From NCBI RefSeq assembly GCF_000687145.1, contig NZ_JMFG01000022.1:1-50215 (forward strand): a DNA stretch of 50,215 bases, written 5' to 3'. Below are positions 3,302-17,225 of the stretch, one piece after another (positions within the stretch are counted from its first letter, which is position 1; each line of letters starts with the position of its first letter). This DNA is from Thermoanaerobaculum aquaticum. Its GTDB lineage: Bacteria > Acidobacteriota > Thermoanaerobaculia > Thermoanaerobaculales > Thermoanaerobaculaceae. The translations under genes and the position numbers were made by a program. Below the pieces are notes generated by a model, which was not told the origin of the DNA, ran no database searches, and saw nothing but the letters and a program-made list of their open reading frames with translations.

Positions 3302-6300
3302 CTACCACGGCAGGTCCCTGGGATCGGCGGGGAGCTGGGCCAAAAGCACCTCCACCGCTCTGGCCAGCTGGGCGTCGTTCTCCTTGTCCAAATCCTGCTG
3401 GGGCGGTTGGAAAACCAAAACGTCGGGTTCACAGCCCTGGCGCTCCATGTTGATCCCCGAACCCGCCACGTACCAGCCGCGGAAAGGCAAACGCACGAAG
3501 GAACCGTCAATTAAGCGGGTGCCACCGGTAGAAATTACCGCCCCAAAGGTGGTCATGCCCACCAGCGGCCCGCGTTTTAAGGTCTTGAACGCCCAGGAGA
3601 AGATTTCGGCGTTGGAGTAGCTGGCTTCGTCGCAAAGGGCTGCCGCCGGGCGCGTCCACGCCGGCAACGGCAGGCGGTCCTGGGGGTAACCGCGAAGGGA
3701 CGGGTCCATGCCCCGGGGGACGGTCCAGGCGTGCCGCTTCACGTTGAGGATGGCCATGAGGTAATCGGTGGTCCAGCCGCCGCCGTTGTTGCGCACGTCA
3801 ATTAAAAGCCCCTGCTTGCCGGACGCGGCGGCAAACAGCTCCCGCTGGAACTCCTCCAGGGAAGGCGCGTCCATGCCTTGAATGTGGATGTAGCCCAGCT
3901 TGCCGCCGGAAAGCTTCTCCACGATGGCCCGCCGCTCCTTCACCCAGGCACGGTAGCGGGCCTGCCGCACCTCGTCCAAGCTGGCCGGTTTAACGGTAAC
4001 CTCCCGCTCCCCCGCCGGGTTTTTCACCGTGAGCCTCACCGGGTGGCCCACCATGCCTTCCAGAAGCGCGAAGAAGTTGCGCTGGGCGTTCACGGGTTCG
4101 CCGTTCACCGCCAGGATGCGGTCCCCCACCTTAAGGCCCACGTCCTCCCGGGCCGCAGGGGTATCCTCCAGCACTTCGGTAACGATCACACCCAGGCCGT
4201 CGGCAGCGGGCTCCACCTCCACACCCAGCACGCCGGTTTGCACCGGCTCCCCCCGTTCGTTGCGGCGGAAGCCCATGTGGGAGGCGTTGAGCTCCCCCAG
4301 CATCCAGTTCACCACCTGCTCGAAATCGCGGTCGGCAAAGGCCACATCGCTGAGCTTCTGGTAGCGCTCACCGATGGCCCGCCAGTTGTAACCGTGGAAG
4401 TGCGGATCGTAGAAGTTGCGATCCAGCTCCCGCCAGGCTTCCTGGAACACCTGGGCGCGCAAAGCCCTCCGCGACACGGTAAAGAGCGCCTCAAACTTCA
4501 CCGGGTCCCCCGGTTTGCCTTCCAGATTCACGCTTTCCACCGTGCCCTTGGCCCCCCGGTACAGAACCAGCTTGCCCTCCTTGAGGAAGGCCAACTGCGA
4601 GGGCCGGGCGTCCGACTCGGTGAGGCGCTTGAGCTCCTTCCCGTCAAACCGCACCTTGTAGAGGTCCCGTTGGCCATCGGGCTCGGCCACAAAAACCACG
4701 GTGCGGGCATCGCTGGCCACCACAAACTCGCCCTCGTCACCCGGAAGCTCCGTGACCGCCCGGGCCCGCTCGTTGATGCCCGGAAAGTCAATGCGCACCG
4801 TGACTTTTTTTTCGCCCTTGGCCTCATCCTTCTTGGCCGCCTTGTCTTCCTCCTCGAAGAGCGCTACCCATTGCTCCGGCGTTCGCTCGTGGTCGGCCTT
4901 GGTGAGGTACACCGCCCACAGGTCGAAGGTGCGCTCGTGCCGACGGGAAAGCCAGTAGAGACGCCGGCCGTCCGGGGACCATACGGGGTTGCGGTCCTCG
5001 TCCGGGTGCTGGCTCACGTTTACCGCCTGCCCGCCGGCCACGGGGATGATGAAGATATCGGTGTTGAAGTGCTCGTCGTCGCGGGAAAAGGCAATCCACT
5101 GGCTATCCGGGGAAAAGGCAAACTCCACGTCCCCCCAGTGGGTGAAAAGCGTCCTGGGGTTGCGGCCGGAAAGCTCGGCGACCGTGAGGTTCCCCTTCCC
5201 CACCAGGTACGCCAGGAGCTTGCCGTCGGGGGAAACCCGCGGCTTGCGCTCGTCTTCATCGGACGCGGTCAACCGCTCCTCCCGGAACGAGGTGGCCTTC
5301 ACGAAGGAGCTGCCGCTGGCCGGCTCCGCTCGGAAGAGGTCGTACTGGCCAAAGCGGTCGGAAGCGTAAAAGAGGGCTTTGCCATCGGGGGTCCAGGTCA
5401 CATCCCTTTCCCACGCCGGCGTGTGGGTCACCCGCACCGTGACCGGCCCGGAAATGGCGGAAAGCTCCTTGCTCCTCCTGGCCGTGACGTACACGTCCCC
5501 GCGCACCACCAGGGCCACCTGGCTGCCGTCGGGAGAGGGCACCACCTCTGAGGCTTGATCCCGCAGCACTGCCCGCTCCATGTCGTCTTCCAGCGCGTCG
5601 GTGGCCACCTCCACCGCCAGGCGCCGGGGCTCGCCGCCACTGGCGGAAACCACGTAAAGCCCATCGCCAAACTCGTAGGCCACGATGGCCCCGTTGGCCG
5701 AGGCCTTGGGGTAGCGCACGTCCCCGCCCTGGTGGTGGGTGAGCTGCGTGAGCTTGCGGTCGGCGAGGTTCAGGCGGAACACGTTGCGGTCATCGCCACC
5801 GTTGTCCGAACGGAAAATCAACGCGTCGCTACCGGCCCAGGAGACGTGATCCTCATCCCACAGGGTTTCGGTAAGCCTCACCAGGTTTCCGGTTTGCAGC
5901 TCCAAAAGCCAGAGGTCGCGGTTGGCCGAACCCCGGTAATGCCGGCGGCTGTCCGGGGTGCTACCGCGTACCAGGGCGAGAAAACGCCCATCCGGCGAGG
6001 GCACCGCCTCCAGGGCGAGGATCTTCGTGAGCAGCTTTTCGGTGCCCCCGGTGACCGCCACGGTGTAGACGGTGTTTTTGCGGTTCCACGCCTCATGGCG
6101 GCGGGAAACGAACACTACCCCGGAGCCCTGGAAGCCCTGGGGAATGTCGGCCGCTTCGTGGAAGGTCAAACGCTTGGTCCTCCCTTCGGGCCAGGACAAC
6201 AGCAGCACGTCGTCGCTGCCCTCCCGATCGGAAGCAAAAGCCAAAAAGCGCCCGCTGGCATCCCAAACGGCGCCCCAGTCGTAGCCGGGGTCGGCGGTGA

Positions 6301-6469
6301 GCCGCTGGGCTCGCCCCCCCTGGGCGGGCACCGCCCACAGGTCGCCCTGCCAGCTAAAAACCACCGTTTGCCCATCCGGCGAAGGGGCCGGGAAACGGGC
6401 CAACCGCACCTCTTCACCGTGAACCGCCACTGCCAATCCAACCGTAAGAACTCCGGCTAAAAAGCGCAT
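3302..6469 (-). CDS. Tricorn-like S41 family serine protease
   Basis: A 1055-residue protein matching the tricorn protease plan. A short hydrophobic N-terminus (MRFLAGVLTVGLAVAVHG), a probable export signal, is followed by a long series of WD40/PD40 beta-propeller blades (about 25-640; repeated SPDG and WSPDGRRLYW-type motifs), a C1 helical domain, a PDZ domain (about 765-850) and the S41 catalytic domain. Catalytic elements seen are the Ser-His pair in NASHMGF, the nucleophile in ASYSNAEIF (about residue 950) and a late Glu in NMERQGCEPDV. The residue after the predicted nucleophile is Asn. Tricorn-type enzymes degrade oligopeptides. ATG 6469 has GGAGGG upstream, and an extension to 6655 would run into the preceding gene. 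It starts two bases after the stop of the patatin-like gene, so it is the last gene of a three-gene operon. Confidence 0.93.
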   Translation of the reverse strand: MRFLAGVLTVGLAVAVHGEEVRLARFPAPSPDGQTVVFSWQGDLWAVPAQGGRAQRLTADPGYDWGAVWDASGRFLAFASDREGSDDVLLLSWPEGRTKRLTFHEAADIPQGFQGSGVVFVSRRHEAWNRKNTVYTVAVTGGTEKLLTKILALEAVPSPDGRFLALVRGSTPDSRRHYRGSANRDLWLLELQTGNLVRLTETLWDEDHVSWAGSDALIFRSDNGGDDRNVFRLNLADRKLTQLTHHQGGDVRYPKASANGAIVAYEFGDGLYVVSASGGEPRRLAVEVATDALEDDMERAVLRDQASEVVPSPDGSQVALVVRGDVYVTARRSKELSAISGPVTVRVTHTPAWERDVTWTPDGKALFYASDRFGQYDLFRAEPASGSSFVKATSFREERLTASDEDERKPRVSPDGKLLAYLVGKGNLTVAELSGRNPRTLFTHWGDVEFAFSPDSQWIAFSRDDEHFNTDIFIIPVAGGQAVNVSQHPDEDRNPVWSPDGRRLYWLSRRHERTFDLWAVYLTKADHERTPEQWVALFEEEDKAAKKDEAKGEKKVTVRIDFPGINERARAVTELPGDEGEFVVASDARTVVFVAEPDGQRDLYKVRFDGKELKRLTESDARPSQLAFLKEGKLVLYRGAKGTVESVNLEGKPGDPVKFEALFTVSRRALRAQVFQEAWRELDRNFYDPHFHGYNWRAIGERYQKLSDVAFADRDFEQVVNWMLGELNASHMGFRRNERGEPVQTGVLGVEVEPAADGLGVIVTEVLEDTPAAREDVGLKVGDRILAVNGEPVNAQRNFFALLEGMVGHPVRLTVKNPAGEREVTVKPASLDEVRQARYRAWVKERRAIVEKLSGGKLGYIHIQGMDAPSLEEFQRELFAAASGKQGLLIDVRNNGGGWTTDYLMAILNVKRHAWTVPRGMDPSLRGYPQDRLPLPAWTRPAAALCDEASYSNAEIFSWAFKTLKRGPLVGMTTFGAVISTGGTRLIDGSFVRLPFRGWYVAGSGINMERQGCEPDVLVFQPPQQDLDKENDAQLARAVEVLLAQLPADPRDLPW

Positions 6470-6471
6470 GC

Positions 6472-7305
6472 TTACCCTCCCTGTTGCGCGCCGACGAAGC
6501 GGCCAAACTCCACCATGAGGGAGACCAGCTCGGCGTTGTGCTCCACCGGCAGCGGGTACTCCACCCCCAACAAAGCCCCATCCCGCCGGGTAAAAGCCGC
6601 GTACTGCTCCTGGGTGGGGGCAAAGACCTGCAACCCAGAACGTTGGCCAGCCCACCGCGTCACGGTCAAGGCGGCGGCAATTTCCTCCCGCCGTTGCACG
6701 GTGGCCAAAAGGGCGTTACCGAGGCCCGGCCGCTCCACCGCTGGCCACGGAAACCCACACACCACGTCCACCTCCGGCGAGGAAAGCGGCGGGAAATCCA
6801 GCTCCGCACAGGCCCCTACTCCACCCCAAAGGCCAGCAGCCGGCGGGAAGCCCCAGGGGAAAGCCGCTGCCTCGGAAAGCCTCCCGCCGTGGGTGAGCTC
6901 CCTCCAGCCCCTCTGGCCGGAGGCCAGGTCTTCCGTGCAAAGCCAAAGCTTGACCCTTCCCGCCAGGGCCGTTTCCGGGGCCAGGTACTCCCCCAGGGCC
7001 GCCGGGGAAAGCCACCCGGAAAGGCGGAAAGGATCGGGCAGCAGCAGGAAACCCTCGTTGAGACCCTCGCGGGCGTAGGCCAAGGCCGGACGGAACAACG
7101 CCGCCCCCTCCTGGGCCAGACGCAAAAAGCGCCGGGCCGCCTCCTCGGCTTCTCCGGCCAGAGCCAAAAGCGCCACCTGCGCCGCAAGCCCAGCAGCGGC
7201 AGCTTCCCCCCACCGGCGGCCGGAAGCGGTAAGCTGCGCCACCACCCCGGCGCAAAAGGCCGCCTGGGCTCCATCCGCCAAAACCACCAGGCCCCGGGAG
7301 CTCAC
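6472..7305 (-). CDS. Patatin-like protein lacking catalytic residues (pseudoenzyme)
   Basis: 277 residues with the outline of a patatin phospholipase but a ruined active site. The N-terminus GLVVLADGAQAAFCAGVVAQ resembles the patatin strand and oxyanion segment. Where GxSxG is expected there is GLAAQ (39-43), so Ser is replaced by Ala41. Further on, AAAFPWGFPPA followed by LWGGV resembles the ASSAVPG...LDGGV block of intact patatins, with the catalytic Asp position occupied by Trp160. The final VDVVCGFPW matches the following core strand. GTG 7305 overlaps the upstream stop by four bases (GTGA) and has GAGGGGGG before it. It sits between a membrane-anchored unknown and tricorn. A non-catalytic scaffold or lipid-binding role is possible. 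The fold assignment rests on these motif correspondences. Confidence 0.7.
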   Translation of the reverse strand: MSSRGLVVLADGAQAAFCAGVVAQLTASGRRWGEAAAAGLAAQVALLALAGEAEEAARRFLRLAQEGAALFRPALAYAREGLNEGFLLLPDPFRLSGWLSPAALGEYLAPETALAGRVKLWLCTEDLASGQRGWRELTHGGRLSEAAAFPWGFPPAAGLWGGVGACAELDFPPLSSPEVDVVCGFPWPAVERPGLGNALLATVQRREEIAAALTVTRWAGQRSGLQVFAPTQEQYAAFTRRDGALLGVEYPLPVEHNAELVSLMVEFGRFVGAQQGG

Positions 7306-8426
7306 GGTGCCCCCCTCACCACCCGGCGCAGCTCCAGGCTGCGGGTTGCGGCAGCCACTTCACCCAAGGTCAAAAGCCGGGGGGGCTGCATCCACGCCAG
7401 AAGCACGGTGTCTGGAAAGTCCAGGGTGCCGTTGCCGTCATCGGCCCACAGCACCGCCCACCGCCCGGACCAGCTCACCGCATCCCCGGGAAGCACATCG
7501 TTCCGCCAACGCAAAGGCCGCCCACCCTCCGAAAGCCAGAGCCCATCCCCCACCACCAACCGCTGCGGCGGTCCCCACGGCTCCGCCAGGGGATCCCCCA
7601 CCGCCGCCAGGGCCGCCACCGCCTGGGGGGTCATGATCAGGTGCCGCACCACCAGCTCCCGGGGGGAAAGGGGCAGGGGCCAACCGGGGCCGCCCTCGGG
7701 CCAAACCCCCGGTGCAAAGCTAAAAACCCCACGGCGAAAGGCCAGGCTCACCCTGGGGTTCACGCCTTCCGGAACCTCGGCCAACCGCCAGAGAGCGGGA
7801 ACCTCCGCCACCTCCCTGGCCCCCGGGGAGGAAACGCTGGCCCAGGGGAGAAGGTCCTGCGGGCGGGCGTAGGCACCCACCTTGACCTTGAAGCGGGTCA
7901 CACCCCCAATTAAGGTGTTGCCGGCCACGGGCTGGGTGAGGAAGTCGTCGTTGTGGGCTTCGCTGGTGACTGGCGCTTTGAGCTCGCTCCCCATTTCCGG
8001 GGCGGCAAACTCCCCGTACGCAAGCTTGTCAGCACTTCCGGCGTTGACGCCTTCCCAGCCGAAGAAAGCCGGCTCCAGCGTGAACCACTGGGCTTTCAAA
8101 AACCCATACGCCGAGGGCCAGGCGGCCAAAGGCTCCGGGTGCAGCTCCTGCCCTTGCCAGCGGACCTTGGGAAAGGGGCACAGAAAACGCGCCGGTTTTT
8201 TCCCCTGGCGAAACTGCAGCAACACACCGGCCCAGACCCGCTCCTGGGGTTGGCGCGGTCCCACGTCGTCGCTGGCCCACTCCTCACCCTCCACCCAGAA
8301 CACCACGGCAGCTTGCAGAAGCTGCGGGCGAAGACTCTCGTGCCGGCGCCAAAACGCCAAAACCGCGGCCACCAACAGGACCAGCACCGCTGCCACCAGC
8401 AAAACCCGGCGGGTGTCTTCGCTCAC
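7302..8426 (-). CDS. Membrane-anchored protein of unknown function
   Basis: 374 residues. GTG 8426 gives MSEDTRRVL followed by one strongly hydrophobic helix (about 8-28), then a soluble, Trp-rich, probably beta-rich periplasmic region with no recognised family. An anchor plus extracytoplasmic domain is the likely topology. A TACAAT box lies six bases before the GTG, so the mRNA is probably leaderless; upstream in-frame codons would run over this promoter and into the divergent yjbQ gene. It is first in an operon with the patatin-like and tricorn genes (4-base overlap, then a 2-base gap), which suggests a joint role with the protease. Function not assigned. Confidence 0.75.
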
Positions 8427-8432
8427 GGGCCC

Positions 8433-8438
8433 ATTGTA
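8433..8438 (-). promoter_or_regulatory. -10 box TACAAT, leaderless start of the 8426 gene
   Basis: TACAAT on the minus strand ends six bases before GTG 8426, so the predicted +1 is the start codon itself. No convincing -35 was seen. On the plus strand the overlapping TTGTAC (8435-8440) could serve as -35 for yjbQ with TACAGT (8460-8465), spacing 19; that is tentative. Confidence 0.65.
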
Positions 8439-8486
8439 CGTGGGCCTTGCCGGGTAAGTTACAGTTTGCAGGGAGGCAAAAGGCCC

Positions 8487-8903
8487 ATGAAGTCCTACAC
8501 CAAAACCCTGACGTTCCACACGCCCACCCGGGTGGCCTTCATCAACATCACCCCGGAGGTGGAAAAGGCCGTAGCCGAATCGGGGGTGCGGGAAGGGCTT
8601 TGCCTGGTGAACGCCATGCACATCACCGCCAGCGTCTTCATCAACGACGACGAACCGGGCTTGCACCGGGACTTCGCCCGCTGGCTGGAGGAGCTGGCCC
8701 CCCACGATGTGAAGCGGTGGGAACACAACCGCACCGGCGAGGACAACGGCGACGCCCACGCCAAAAGGCAAATCATGGGCCGCGAGGTGGTGGTGGCCAT
8801 CACCAACGGCCAACTGCACTTTGGCCCCTGGGAGCAGATCTTTTACGGCGAGTTCGATGGGCAAAGGCCCAAGCGGGTGCTCATCAAGATCATTGGCGAT
8901 TAG
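8487..8903 (+). CDS. yjbQ: YjbQ/UPF0047 family protein (secondary thiamine-phosphate synthase)
   Basis: 138 residues, full family length. The family signatures are present: [19 protein letters not shown] near residue 42, RHN-like [17 protein letters not shown], and [20 protein letters not shown] near the C-terminus. E. coli YjbQ shows weak thiamine-phosphate synthase activity, which gives the family its TIGR name; its normal role is not settled. ATG 8487 is preceded by GGGAGG at 8471. It diverges from the minus-strand tricorn operon and is followed 25 bases on by arsC. It is a second thiamine-linked gene in the window, though no riboswitch precedes it. Confidence 0.93.
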
Positions 8904-8928
8904 CTGATAAACTGTCCCGGGGGTTGAA

Positions 8929-9402
8929 ATGCAGAAATACAGGGTCTTGATCCTCTGCACCGGCAACTCCTGCCGCTCGCAAATGGCCGAAGGCTGGGTG
9001 CGTCACCTCCTGGGTGACCGCGTGGAGGTGGCCTCTGCGGGGACCCACCCGGCGGGGTATGTTCACCCCATGGCCATCAAGGTCATGGCCGAAGAAGGAG
9101 TCATCATTTCTCGCCAGCGGTCAAAATCGGTGGCCCAATTTGCCAATGACACCTGGGATTTGGTCATCACCGTTTGCGACAGCGCCCGGGAAGAATGCCC
9201 CTACTTTCCCGGCGCCAAGGAACAAATCCACATTTCGTTCCCTGACCCTGCCCTGGTGGGGGGACCTCGGGAGATACAGGAAGAGGCCTATCGCACGGTC
9301 CGCGACGCCATCCGCCAGCGCCTGGTCCCCGAGGTGGAACGCCGCTGCCGCGCGGGGGCTAGCGGCTCCGCCGGTGCTGCCGAGGCTGCCTCGGAGAGCT
9401 AG
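8929..9402 (+). CDS. arsC: Arsenate reductase, thioredoxin-coupled type (LMW-PTP fold)
   Basis: 157 residues. The N-terminal phosphatase loop is C10-TGNSC-R16 (CX5R). The redox cysteines of thioredoxin-linked ArsC are at C83 (VCDSA) and C90 (EECPYFPG), close to the C10/C82/C89 arrangement of the B. subtilis enzyme. HISFPDPA carries the general-acid Asp. It reduces arsenate to arsenite in the cytoplasm. The C-terminal tail (RAGASGSAGAAEAASES) is a low-complexity extension. ATG 8929 has GGGGG upstream; a TAAACT box at 8908-8913 may give it its own promoter. The MFS gene 37 bases downstream could be the partner exporter, but that link is by position only. Confidence 0.93.
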   Translation: MQKYRVLILCTGNSCRSQMAEGWVRHLLGDRVEVASAGTHPAGYVHPMAIKVMAEEGVIISRQRSKSVAQFANDTWDLVITVCDSAREECPYFPGAKEQIHISFPDPALVGGPREIQEEAYRTVRDAIRQRLVPEVERRCRAGASGSAGAAEAASES

Positions 9403-9427
9403 CGCAACGTAAGGCCACTGCACCGCG

Positions 9428-9433
9428 TAAACT
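9428..9433 (+). promoter_or_regulatory. -10 box TAAACT, leaderless start of the MFS gene
   Basis: TAAACT followed by exactly six bases and GTG 9440. No Shine-Dalgarno sequence precedes the GTG, so a leaderless mRNA is predicted. Confidence 0.6.
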
Positions 9434-9439
9434 CTTGGC

Positions 9440-10804
9440 GTGCAGACGGCAAGCCCTGCGGGTTTCATCCAAGATCACCGTCCGCTGTTGTGGGCTACAG
9501 CTCTGGGTTCGTTCTTACCGCCTTTTTTGGGGTCCTCCCTGAACGTGGCCCTGCCGGTGATTGGCCGGGAGCTCCAGGCCACCGCCTTTGAGCTTGGGTT
9601 AATCGTCAACGCCTTCCTCATTGCCGCCGCCGGCATGCTGGTGCCCCTGGGACGCTGGGCCGATGCCTGCGGCCGCGCCCGGGTGTTCACCTGGGGGCTT
9701 TTGGGACAAGCTCTCTGCTCGGCGGCAGCGATCTTTACCCGGTCGGTGCCGGCGCTTTTGCTGGTGCGGGCAGCGCAAGGGGTGGCTGCTGCCGCTACCT
9801 TTGCCACCGCCGTGGCTCTGGTGGCCCAGGTGGCACCGGCGGGGCAAAAGGGGAAGCTCCTGGGAGCCAACACCGCTGCGGTGTACCTGGGGCTTACCCT
9901 GGGGCCCCCCACCGGCGGCCTGCTCACCCAGCACCTAGGCTGGCGCAGCGTCTTTGGCGCTTCAGCGCTCTTGGCTCTGGGCGGTTGGGCTCTGGCCCGT
10001 CCCTGGGGGAGGGAAAAGAGCCCGCGGGAAGGCGTGGCTCAGCCCGCCAGCCTCTGGCTTTTTGCCGCAGGCGTTTCCCTGGTCCTGGGTGGCCTGGCCA
10101 TGACCCGCGTTCAGGGGCGCTTTGCCGCCCTGGCCGCACTGGGAGCCATTGCCGTTGTCCTTTCCTTCCGGGGTTCCTCGAACTTACCCCTGGAGCCAGC
10201 CCTTTTTCGCAACACCGCCTTTACCTTTTCCAACCTGGCGGCGTTGATCCATTACGCCGCTACCTTTTCGGTTTCGCTGTTCCTGGCCCTTTACCTGCAG
10301 GTGGTGGGCGGGCTTTCCCCCAAGGCCACCGGCTTTCTCCTCCTCGCCCAGCCGCTGCTCATGGCGCTGCTTTCCCCCGTGGCCGGCAGCGTCTCGGATC
10401 GGTGGGAGCCGCGGTGGGTGGCCTCCGCCGGCATGGCCCTCACCGCCGGGGGTTTGCTGGTGTTGAGCTCTGCCCAACTCCGGGTTTCGCTTTTCCAGGT
10501 AATCTCGGGGCTTGCGCTTTTAGGCATTGGCTTTGCGCTGTTTTCATCCCCCAACACCCATGCGGTGATGGGCCAGGCTCCAACCAAGTTGCTTTCGGCG
10601 GCTTCCGCCACCCTGGCGCTCATGAGGCTCACCGGCCAGGCCGGAAGCCTGGTTCTGGCCAGCTTCTTCCTCCCCGCGAGCAGCCTCGATACGCAAGCCG
10701 GAAAGCTTTTGGTGCCCGGGATGCAGGCCAACCTCTGGGTGGCGTCGCTGCTTTGTCTTGTGGGCATGGTTTTTTCTTTAGCAAGGGGCAACGTGCATGG
10801 TTAA
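9440..10804 (+). CDS. MFS transporter, DHA2/EmrB-like drug or small-molecule exporter
   Basis: 454 residues, almost entirely hydrophobic, with about 13-14 predicted membrane helices. The first helix region (NVALPVIGRELQA), the loop motif GRWADACGRARVF (motif A, G-x3-D-x2-G-R) and the GLTLGPPTGGLLTQHLGWRSVF block (motif C region) mark the 14-helix DHA2 group. It exports drugs or metabolites by proton antiport; the substrate cannot be read from the sequence. The start GTG 9440 sits six bases after TAAACT. It follows arsC and might be co-transcribed with it as well as having its own promoter. Confidence 0.9.
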   Translation: MQTASPAGFIQDHRPLLWATALGSFLPPFLGSSLNVALPVIGRELQATAFELGLIVNAFLIAAAGMLVPLGRWADACGRARVFTWGLLGQALCSAAAIFTRSVPALLLVRAAQGVAAAATFATAVALVAQVAPAGQKGKLLGANTAAVYLGLTLGPPTGGLLTQHLGWRSVFGASALLALGGWALARPWGREKSPREGVAQPASLWLFAAGVSLVLGGLAMTRVQGRFAALAALGAIAVVLSFRGSSNLPLEPALFRNTAFTFSNLAALIHYAATFSVSLFLALYLQVVGGLSPKATGFLLLAQPLLMALLSPVAGSVSDRWEPRWVASAGMALTAGGLLVLSSAQLRVSLFQVISGLALLGIGFALFSSPNTHAVMGQAPTKLLSAASATLALMRLTGQAGSLVLASFFLPASSLDTQAGKLLVPGMQANLWVASLLCLVGMVFSLARGNVHG

Positions 10805-14790: not shown

Positions 14791-16176
14791 TTACGAGTCC
14801 TTCTCTTCTTTTGGCGCGGTTTTTTGCGCCAAAAAGTCGGCAAGCTTCACACCGGTGAGCGATTCCACCACAGTGGGCAGCTGGGCCAACACCTCGGCCA
14901 CCTGACCGGTGAGCTTGCTGGTACCGGAAGCATCCCCCACCATGACGATGCGGTCCACCTTGGACAGCGGCTCGGCCACCGCCCGGGCCAGCTCCGGCAG
15001 CTTTTGAATGACCATCTCGGCCAAAGCGGCCTGGGTGTAGTCCCGCCACGCCGCGGCCTTTTCCCGCATGGCTTCGGCTTCGGCTTTTCCCTGCTCCCGC
15101 AACGCTTCCGCGCGCACCTGGGCTTCCAGCCGCAGGCCCGCGGCTCGCCCCTTGGCTTCCAGTTCCTTGCGGTAGGCTTCGGCTTCCGCCTCCAGCTTGG
15201 CGCGGTAGGCTTCCGCTTCCGCCGGCCGCTTGACGGTGGCGTCCAGGTGCTTTTCACGCAGGGCAATTTCCTGCTCCTCCAGCTTGGTGGCCAGCTCCTT
15301 TTCCACCAGCTTGATTTGGTACTCCTGGCGCTTCACCTGCTCCAAAAGCTTGGCCCGCTCCAGCTCGTAGGCCAGCTCCGCTTGCGCTCGCTTGGCGTTC
15401 ACCGCCGCCTGGAACTCCGCCCGCTGGATTTCAAAATCCCGGGTGGCTGCCGCCAGTTCGGCTTCCGCAGCCAGCCGCGCCACGTCCCCTTCCTTGCGGT
15501 ACTGGGCGGCACGGATGGTGGCGTCGCGCTCGGTTTCCGCCTGGGCAATGGCCGCATCGCGCTTGACCTCGGCAATGCGGCGGGCCCCCAAAGCCTCAAG
15601 GTAGCCCTGGCTGTCGGTGATGTCCTTCAGGGAAAAGGCCAGGAGCTCCAGGCCCAGGCGGTCAAAATCCGCCTGCGCGGCGCTGCGCACCCGTTCGGCA
15701 AAGCGGTCGCGCTGGGAGTAAATTTCCTCCACCGCCATGGTCCCCAGGGCTGCGCGCATGTGCCCTTCCAGAACCTCCTGGGCCACGGCAGCAATGCCTG
15801 CAGTGCCTCGGGAAAGGAAGTTCTCCACCGCCCGGTGCAGCCGTCGCTCGTCGGAAGACACCTTGACCTGACCAAAGGCTTCCGCGGCAATGATCACCCC
15901 ATGGGCGGTGAGGACCTCGGGACAGCGGATGGAAACGGAAATGACGTCCAGGGGCAAAACCTGCACCGATTCCAAAAGCGGCATCACAAAGGTCCCGCCC
16001 CCCACCTGCAGGCGGTAGCCCACCCTGCGCCTTCGCCCATCGGGCTCGATGACGGTGGATGTGCGGCCGGAGATGACCAGCACCTGGTTGGGACCTACCT
16101 TGCGGTAATTGAAGGCCCAGAGCGCAAAGGCCAAAACCACAACGAAAACGCCAATAGCCCACGGGAGGAACGCCAT
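14791..16176 (-). CDS. Flotillin-like SPFH-domain protein
   Basis: 461 residues. One N-terminal membrane helix (MAFLPWAIGVFVVVLAFALW) is followed by the SPFH/PHB domain (about 30-200; YRKVGPNQVLVISGR, DVISVSIRCPEVLTAHG) and a long Ala/Glu-rich coiled coil (about 200-400) with EAEAYR repeats, as in FloT/YuaG. Flotillins organise membrane microdomains and scaffold signalling or secretion complexes. ATG 16176 is chosen because GGAGGG lies 8 bases upstream and the membrane helix begins there; the frame runs 17 codons further back but without signals. It is first in an operon with the aminotransferase-kinase fusion, and divergent from an intact patatin gene. Confidence 0.93.
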   Translation of the reverse strand: MAFLPWAIGVFVVVLAFALWAFNYRKVGPNQVLVISGRTSTVIEPDGRRRRVGYRLQVGGGTFVMPLLESVQVLPLDVISVSIRCPEVLTAHGVIIAAEAFGQVKVSSDERRLHRAVENFLSRGTAGIAAVAQEVLEGHMRAALGTMAVEEIYSQRDRFAERVRSAAQADFDRLGLELLAFSLKDITDSQGYLEALGARRIAEVKRDAAIAQAETERDATIRAAQYRKEGDVARLAAEAELAAATRDFEIQRAEFQAAVNAKRAQAELAYELERAKLLEQVKRQEYQIKLVEKELATKLEEQEIALREKHLDATVKRPAEAEAYRAKLEAEAEAYRKELEAKGRAAGLRLEAQVRAEALREQGKAEAEAMREKAAAWRDYTQAALAEMVIQKLPELARAVAEPLSKVDRIVMVGDASGTSKLTGQVAEVLAQLPTVVESLTGVKLADFLAQKTAPKEEKDS

Positions 16177-16215
16177 GAGACCCTCCGTTCCCGGCCAGCC
16201 GCCGGGGTCTTGCTC

Positions 16216-16244
16216 ACGATACGACAAGTTCTTTGTCGGTACAA
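16216..16244 (-). promoter_or_regulatory. Flotillin promoter with inverted repeat filling its spacer
   Basis: On the minus strand: TTGTAC (16244-16239), 17 bases, TATCGT (16221-16216). The 17-base spacer is exactly a perfect inverted repeat, CGACAA-N5-TTGTCG (16222-16238). That is the classical position for a repressor operator or a MerR-type activator site. Predicted start near 16209, leaving a 33-base leader with a GGAGGG ribosome-binding site. Confidence 0.6.
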
Positions 16245-16299
16245 GGTCCCAAAGGCTATCAAGCGAGCGCCACCCCGCGCGTTTCTGGCATTGCTGCGC

Positions 16300-16305
16300 T
16301 AGTAT
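16300..16305 (+). promoter_or_regulatory. -10 box TAGTAT before the patatin gene
   Basis: TAGTAT followed by eight bases and GTG 16314. No Shine-Dalgarno sequence lies between. This suggests a leaderless or near-leaderless transcript, and supports the GTG over the further-upstream in-frame TTG at 16233. Confidence 0.5.
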
Positions 16306-16313
16306 TTCAGCCT

Positions 16314-17225
16314 GTGGGTTTTCTGGATTTCCTGTTCCGCCGCGGTCCCCGCCAGGGTGTGGTGCTGGCGTTGGGAGGGGGCGGGGCTCGGGGCCTGGCC
16401 CACTTGGGGGTTTTAGAGGTCATTGAAGAGGCGGGTATCCCGGTGGCGGGTATCGCCGGAACCAGCGCGGGCGCGGTGGTGGGGGCCATGTGGCTCACCC
16501 TGGGAAACACCCAAGAGGTCGTCAAGCGGTGGGAGGAGTTTCTGGCTTCCGACTTCCCCTCGCACCTGCCCGAGGTGCGGCTCACCGAGGAGGTTTCCAG
16601 CCGCGATAACCTGCTTCTGTCCTTTGCCCAGCGCCTCCAGCAGGGGGCACAGGTGGCCCTGGCGCTGCACCGACGGGGGTTGGTGGAGCATGAAGACCTG
16701 GAGCGCGCGGTGGCGTTCTTGATCCCCCAAGCGAGGATCGAATCCCTGCCCCAACCGTTTGCGGCGGTGGTCACCGATTTTGCCACCGGCAAGGCTGTGG
16801 CCTTAACCCGGGGGGATCTGCGGCAGGCAGTGGCAGCTTCTTCTGCAGTCCCCGGAGTGGTGCCTCCCTATGGCCTGGACGGCCGCTACGTGCTGGACGG
16901 CGGGGTGGTGGCGGAGGTGCCGGTGGAGGAAGCCCGGGGCCTGGTCCCACGACCGGTGGTGGCGGTGGACGTGGGCGATCTCCCCGATCCTGACGAAGAC
17001 CCCAGGCGCATCACGGTGCCCCGGGTGCTCATGCGCGCCAACGTCATGACCCACGCCCGCCTCCGGCAGGTGCTGGTGGCTTCCGCGGACCTGGTGATCC
17101 GCCCGGAGGTTTGGGGCATGCACTGGTCGGAGTTCCGTCGGCTTACCGAAGCGGTGGAGGCTGGAAGAAAGGCGGCGCGTTCCTGCCTTAACCGCCTGCG
17201 GGCCCTGGCTCTGCGACGGGCTTGA
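16314..17225 (+). CDS. Patatin-like phospholipase (RssA/NTE-like), catalytically intact
   Basis: 303 residues. All patatin elements are present: oxyanion glycines LALGGGGARGLAHLGV, nucleophile elbow GTSAG, AASSAVPGVVPP, and the catalytic Asp in YVLDGGVVAEVPV. It hydrolyses acyl esters of phospholipids or lysophospholipids at the inner face of the membrane. No signal peptide. GTG 16314 is preferred because of the TAGTAT box upstream. The last codons overlap the region of the thioesterase ribosome-binding site (GGAGG at 17230), so the pair is probably one operon for acyl-chain turnover. It contrasts with the degenerate patatin-like gene at 6472-7305. Confidence 0.93.
   Translation: MGFLDFLFRRGPRQGVVLALGGGGARGLAHLGVLEVIEEAGIPVAGIAGTSAGAVVGAMWLTLGNTQEVVKRWEEFLASDFPSHLPEVRLTEEVSSRDNLLLSFAQRLQQGAQVALALHRRGLVEHEDLERAVAFLIPQARIESLPQPFAAVVTDFATGKAVALTRGDLRQAVAASSAVPGVVPPYGLDGRYVLDGGVVAEVPVEEARGLVPRPVVAVDVGDLPDPDEDPRRITVPRVLMRANVMTHARLRQVLVASADLVIRPEVWGMHWSEFRRLTEAVEAGRKAARSCLNRLRALALRRA

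Follow-up and report, generated by a model that had tools for sequence, protein, structure and literature searches.

Patatin-like proteins that lack catalytic residues are already known as a kind from plants and from Toxoplasma. In the plant pPLAIII subfamily, the published account describes replacement of the Ser of GxSxG by Gly and of the Asp of DGG by G, S or T across the whole subfamily (PMC4623698), and these proteins are stated to still hydrolyse acyl lipids (PMC4623698, PMC4204433). The Toxoplasma protein TgPL1 is described as having neither a catalytic Ser nor PLA2 activity, and a role in phospholipid binding or as a helper has been suggested for it (PMC10513453). In the open-licence papers searched we recognised no bacterial pseudo-patatin, and hence no family-wide one that lacks the nucleophile, the dyad Asp and the oxyanion loop together, and we found no paper there that brings Thermoanaerobaculum and patatin together.

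The pseudo-patatin described here is encoded in a 50,215-nt stretch of Thermoanaerobaculum aquaticum DNA (the window), and pPLAIII is its closest known parallel, both having lost the Ser (to Gly) and the Asp. The two differ in that pPLAIII is plant-specific and is described as keeping its anion-binding DGGGx(xx)G element, whereas the bacterial protein and its homologues carry [AG]DGxx[AT] and have Trp or Ala for the Asp. We judge the likeness to be convergent, with pPLAIII known here by its published description. TgPL1 resembles the pseudo-patatin in being a natural patatin-like protein without a catalytic Ser, but it is one lone protein from a eukaryote, in which the other catalytic residues are said to be retained, and we claim no kinship with it.

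The pseudo-patatin gene lies on the minus strand at 6472..7305 and encodes 277 aa; it was characterized through its open reading frame, its homologues, a structural model and a fold search. Its GTG start overlaps by 4 nt (GTGA) the TGA stop of the upstream gene (7302..8426, minus strand), which itself starts with GTG and encodes a membrane-anchored protein with a single N-terminal hydrophobic helix. This protein has no assigned family and no Pfam match at E ≤ 1, and its model is of low confidence (pLDDT 66.4, pTM 0.52; helix 3–31). On the other side, the ATG of a tricorn-like protease (3302..6469, minus strand) lies 2 bases past the pseudo-patatin stop; by Pfam the protease combines a PD40 propeller, PDZ, Tricorn_C1 and S41 domains, and its N terminus is signal-peptide-like. 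The −10-like hexamer TACAAT (8433..8438, minus strand) stands 6 nt 5′ of the GTG of the membrane gene, and TA[CG]AAT followed by six nucleotides and the start codon recurs at all five Thermoanaerobaculaceae loci that have that gene. This hexamer is a possible leaderless promoter for the three genes. Outside this locus, the window also encodes an intact RssA-like patatin (16314..17225, plus strand) with GTSAG and LDGGV motifs, which served as a comparison protein. It matches Pfam Patatin with an E-value of 1.6e-31 and scores below the cut-off of the NCBIfam RssA model. A minus-strand SPFH/flotillin gene is divergent from it (window 14791–17225), an order that is repeated in genome G002.

Taken alone, the pseudo-patatin has no match in Pfam (E ≤ 1), NCBIfam or PHROGs, and annotation will miss it because it has no score in these libraries. 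It is conserved at 43–78% identity in 14 further full-length homologues and is therefore no chance open reading frame. Against the Pfam Patatin cut-off of 27.7 bits, one homologue scores 27.4 bits; among the homologues, G004 (31.2 bits) and G012 (27.7 bits, with neighbours) are over the cut-off and G005, G003 and G006 are under it. A profile of the pseudo-patatin family aligned to five intact patatins of the sister family with an hhalign probability of 99.3% over 297 columns. These intact relatives (G017, G018, G019, G023 and G024) are 26–27% identical to the window protein and share with it a C-terminal block, E[FY]P and N.EL. They differ in keeping GVSAG (5/5), GGGV[RK]G (5/5) and DGG (4/5), and in their gene neighbours. 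The same profile showed no significant similarity to the intact patatin of the window (0.3%, E 0.18). Since libraries are blank and that patatin is too distant, the link to patatins rests on the homologues and on the predicted fold. Sequence searches of the PDB, with the single protein and with the family profile, found no patatin relative, and the viral contigs searched yielded no relative of the pseudo-patatin.

The structural model, predicted from 16 aligned sequences, has a pLDDT of 88.3 and a pTM of 0.91. In a Foldseek search of the PDB, all 18 matches at E ≤ 0.001 carry titles of patatin-type phospholipases or lipases (best E 2.9e-7). Structural alignment gave Z scores of 20.7 with PlpD (229 residues, 3.0 Å), 20.6 with CapV and 19.3 with patatin. 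The solved structures of PlpD, CapV, CapE and patatin thus resemble the model over its whole length (best Z 19–21), but their sequences are only 10–17% identical to the pseudo-patatin. The catalytic dyads of these four proteins are intact; among the structures, 9kej carries the title of an S58A mutant. We are confident, on the strength of the predicted model, that the 6472–7305 protein has the patatin fold.

Alignment with the intact relatives locates what became of the catalytic elements. Their GVSAG aligns with residues 37–41 of the window protein, which read AAGLA there and in G001 and G[AG]GLG, i.e., GxGxG, in the other 14 of 16 rows. The nucleophilic Ser is Gly in every one of the 16 rows that cover the site (Gly39 in the window). 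The dyad Asp is replaced by Trp in 13 of 15 rows and by Ala in two; its register was taken from hhalign, as MAFFT had shifted the Asp motif by a gap. In the window protein this block reads LWGGV (residues 159–163, with Trp160 for the Asp), as it does at locus L027. The oxyanion loop is also lost: GGGV[RK]G has become [AG]DGxx[AT] in 16/16 rows, and in the window GGGVRG corresponds to ADGAQA (residues 10–15). The proposal that had been made from the window's letters, the sequence-only reading, of a patatin-like pseudoenzyme without Ser and Asp is borne out by these alignments and by the superpositions: the fold is that of a patatin, and no Thermoanaerobaculaceae homologue retains the Ser (0/16) or the Asp (0/15). 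LWGGV in place of LDGGV was read correctly, and the oxyanion loop adds a third loss to the two residues named there. GLAAQ, which had been taken for the GxSxG equivalent, does occur at residues 39–43, two residues off register from the true site. The patatin at 16314–17225, offered as a direct comparison in the same window, is intact as described, but with a non-significant profile match it cannot carry the argument.

Several residues of the pseudo-patatin are strongly conserved. Asp11, which replaces the middle Gly of the oxyanion loop of the intact relatives, and Cys183, the only invariant thiol, are both invariant in 15/15 rows and were not found at the matching columns of the intact relatives. 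Tyr250 is likewise invariant in the 15 pseudo-patatin rows, whereas Ser, Thr, His and Lys are all missing from the positions conserved in at least 14 of them. The partial row L038 was excluded from these 15-row counts and from the tree. In the predicted model, Asp11 and Cys183 would each follow a central strand (strands 4–9 and 178–183). With clustering read off the secondary structure of the model, 11 of 25 residues at the pocket rim are invariant compared with 47 of 277 overall (p 0.0008); since this residue set was picked after inspection of the alignment, we treat the invariance of the rim as a lead.

Of the 17 Thermoanaerobaculaceae genomes, 16 encode the pseudo-patatin; the sole miss is a genome of 74% completeness, and a contig end cuts one of the 16 copies. 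A scan of the genome contigs with two peptide patterns returned 15 loci, each of them the protein of a family genome already found. Across a sample of 396 genomes of the phylum, matches at E ≤ 1e-12 were confined to the order and to one intact patatin in G383. The latter (L091:1102–2268) is a distant patatin from another family of the phylum and sits beside an open reading frame whose cysteine clusters are ferredoxin-like. Relatives that keep GxSxG occur in 5 of 20 genomes of the sister family within the order. One of these (L042:10181–11278, G023) keeps GVSAG and GGGVRG but reads VAAGA instead of VDGGA; the dyad may here have been lost a second time, in part and independently.

In the tree, the pseudo-patatins form one clade with full support (100/100) on a stem of 2.73 changes per column. 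The placement of this clade and the sister-family intact proteins among other intact patatins is weakly supported (79/74) and carries a long-branch warning; we therefore confine our claim to the pseudo clade being one group. For five pairs of pseudo-patatins, dN/dS was 0.11, 0.23, 0.33, 0.25 and 0.26, where the two values of pairs that contain the window protein are rough because synonymous divergence is high. In most pairs these values are somewhat above those of the neighbouring genes, and the catalytic residues are gone, as would be seen in a decaying gene. Against decay, the frame is open in all 15 full-length copies from six genera, dN/dS is well below 1 and 47 positions are invariant. 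We consider decay refuted by the family-wide open frames, with a negligible chance of being right. The 6472–7305 protein is a pseudoenzyme at the level of the family, not a product of local decay, and, as far as the compared sequences can speak, this survey shows a single ancestral loss in Thermoanaerobaculaceae followed by purifying selection.

The 16 pseudo-patatin loci, 15 of which extend downstream, were compared for their neighbours. The tricorn gene is the next gene downstream in 9 of these 15; in the other six, the first conserved gene to follow is either cysS or a small one that looks lipoprotein-like, as named by reading the sequences; cysS, so named, lies downstream in 11/15. Upstream, the membrane gene is found at 5 of 16 loci and a Thy1-domain gene at eight. 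At L030, a frame beside the pseudo-patatin (7477–10335) ends in a stretch that is ThyX-like by eye, but the Thy1-domain protein found at other loci does not match it. The run of membrane gene, pseudo-patatin and tricorn is seen in Thermoanaerobaculum only (3/3 genomes), so that the conserved synteny of the three genes that the sequence-only reading had looked to does not extend beyond this genus. At nine of the 16 loci (L026, L027, L028, L030, L031, L032, L034, L037 and L038), TAGCAT stands 6–8 nt ahead of the pseudo-patatin start, preceded by TGC, TGG or TGT and resembling an extended −10; many genomes therefore probably have a leaderless promoter of the gene's own. Homologues of the membrane protein (7302–8426) occur in 17 of 20 sister-family genomes, nine loci of which were fetched (L106–L114). 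At several of these nine, the membrane gene is followed by frames that we take to be Opp/Dpp-like ATPases, and it therefore gives no hint of the role of the patatin. We infer that the co-transcribed neighbours vary by genus and are not obligate partners of the pseudo-patatin.

This bears on the earlier suggestion that the pseudo-patatin, being tightly coupled to the tricorn protease, serves in regulation or as a scaffold. The spacing in the window is tight on both sides, and the tricorn is next in line at most of the loci. However, the protease is missing at 6 of 15 loci, and tricorns of this type (at least 57% identity) occur only in genomes that have one at the pseudo-patatin locus, and the family's remaining tricorn paralogues are 29–38% identical. 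By eye, the N termini of the tricorns are signal-peptide-like while that of the pseudo-patatin is not, and the two proteins therefore probably reside in different compartments: the tricorn looks exported and the pseudo-patatin cytosolic, as judged from the N-terminal residues. We consider a role tied to the tricorn very unlikely.

We also weighed whether the protein could still be an acyl hydrolase by a non-canonical mechanism of the pPLAIII kind (GxGxG with GGG, SGG or TGG). The plant proteins, with the same two residues lost, are stated to retain acyl hydrolysis (PMC4623698, PMC4204433), and most pseudo-patatin homologues do show GxGxG in the form G[AG]GLG. But pPLAIII is described as retaining the anion-binding element (PMC4623698) whose equivalent is lost here, the invariant Asp11 in place of the middle Gly should repel an oxyanion, and the window protein itself has AAGLA rather than GxGxG. 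Residual hydrolysis of this kind thus seems improbable to us. A different catalytic centre built from Cys183 and Asp11, perhaps with Tyr250 and Asp91, seems just as improbable. Both residues are invariant, are missing from the matching columns of the intact relatives and are predicted to follow the central strands of the model, but neither His nor Lys is conserved for activation of the thiol, and an invariant Cys and Asp may serve binding or structure instead. In a third reading, the pseudo-patatin regulates an active patatin within its own cell, either as a decoy or by joining it in a heterodimer. CapV and CapE, which form dimers and filaments according to their PDB titles, are among the best fold matches, and in 15 of 17 family genomes one or more patatins pass the Pfam cut-off. 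In G008, however, a 96% complete genome with a pseudo-patatin, Pfam Patatin has no match (E ≤ 0.001) and the window's intact patatin no homologue (E ≤ 1e-20), and the C2-type intact relative is found in only some genomes. A pseudo-patatin in a genome without a detectable patatin disfavours an obligate decoy role, and we give the decoy reading a low probability overall.

We believe that the 6472–7305 protein is very probably a retained, non-hydrolytic pseudoenzyme. Our preferred explanation, which we hold to be somewhat better than even, is a cytosolic protein of patatin fold that binds a ligand or partner in its remodelled pocket. A patatin with a C-terminal extension lost its nucleophile, dyad Asp and oxyanion loop in the ancestor of Thermoanaerobaculaceae, and its product has since been retained under purifying selection; in this scheme it would also have given up hydrolysis of acyl esters. 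Since lipid hydrolysis is reported for pPLAIII proteins, which lack the same two residues, we infer this inactivity rather than assert it. The remodelled pocket would lie where the central strands come to their C-terminal ends, the place of the active site in an intact patatin, and would comprise Asp11-Gly12, Gly39, Trp160-Gly-Gly and Cys183-Gly-Phe-Pro. Its conservation suggests that the pocket is still in use, either for binding or for a new chemistry, and it may take an acyl chain, a lipid head group, another small molecule or a protein partner, by which the protein would act as sensor or adaptor. That the old pocket binds a small ligand is a tentative reading of the aligned residues to which we give a little less than an even chance. 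The long stem also fits a period of drift followed by a wholly new role that avoids the pocket. We regard it as unlikely that the patatin site has been rebuilt as a new functional centre, with an Asp in the oxyanion loop, Trp for the catalytic Asp and the invariant Cys183-Gly-Phe where a neighbouring strand ends; if true, a lipase would have evolved in this one bacterial family into either a new enzyme or a receptor dedicated to a ligand.

It is a puzzle how plant patatins without Ser and Asp could be active. A compact bacterial clade that has lost the nucleophile, the Asp and the oxyanion loop, and that has intact relatives in a sister family, offers a clean way to ask what is left for a patatin fold to do once its chemistry is gone, and it does so in a host that is probably cultivated.
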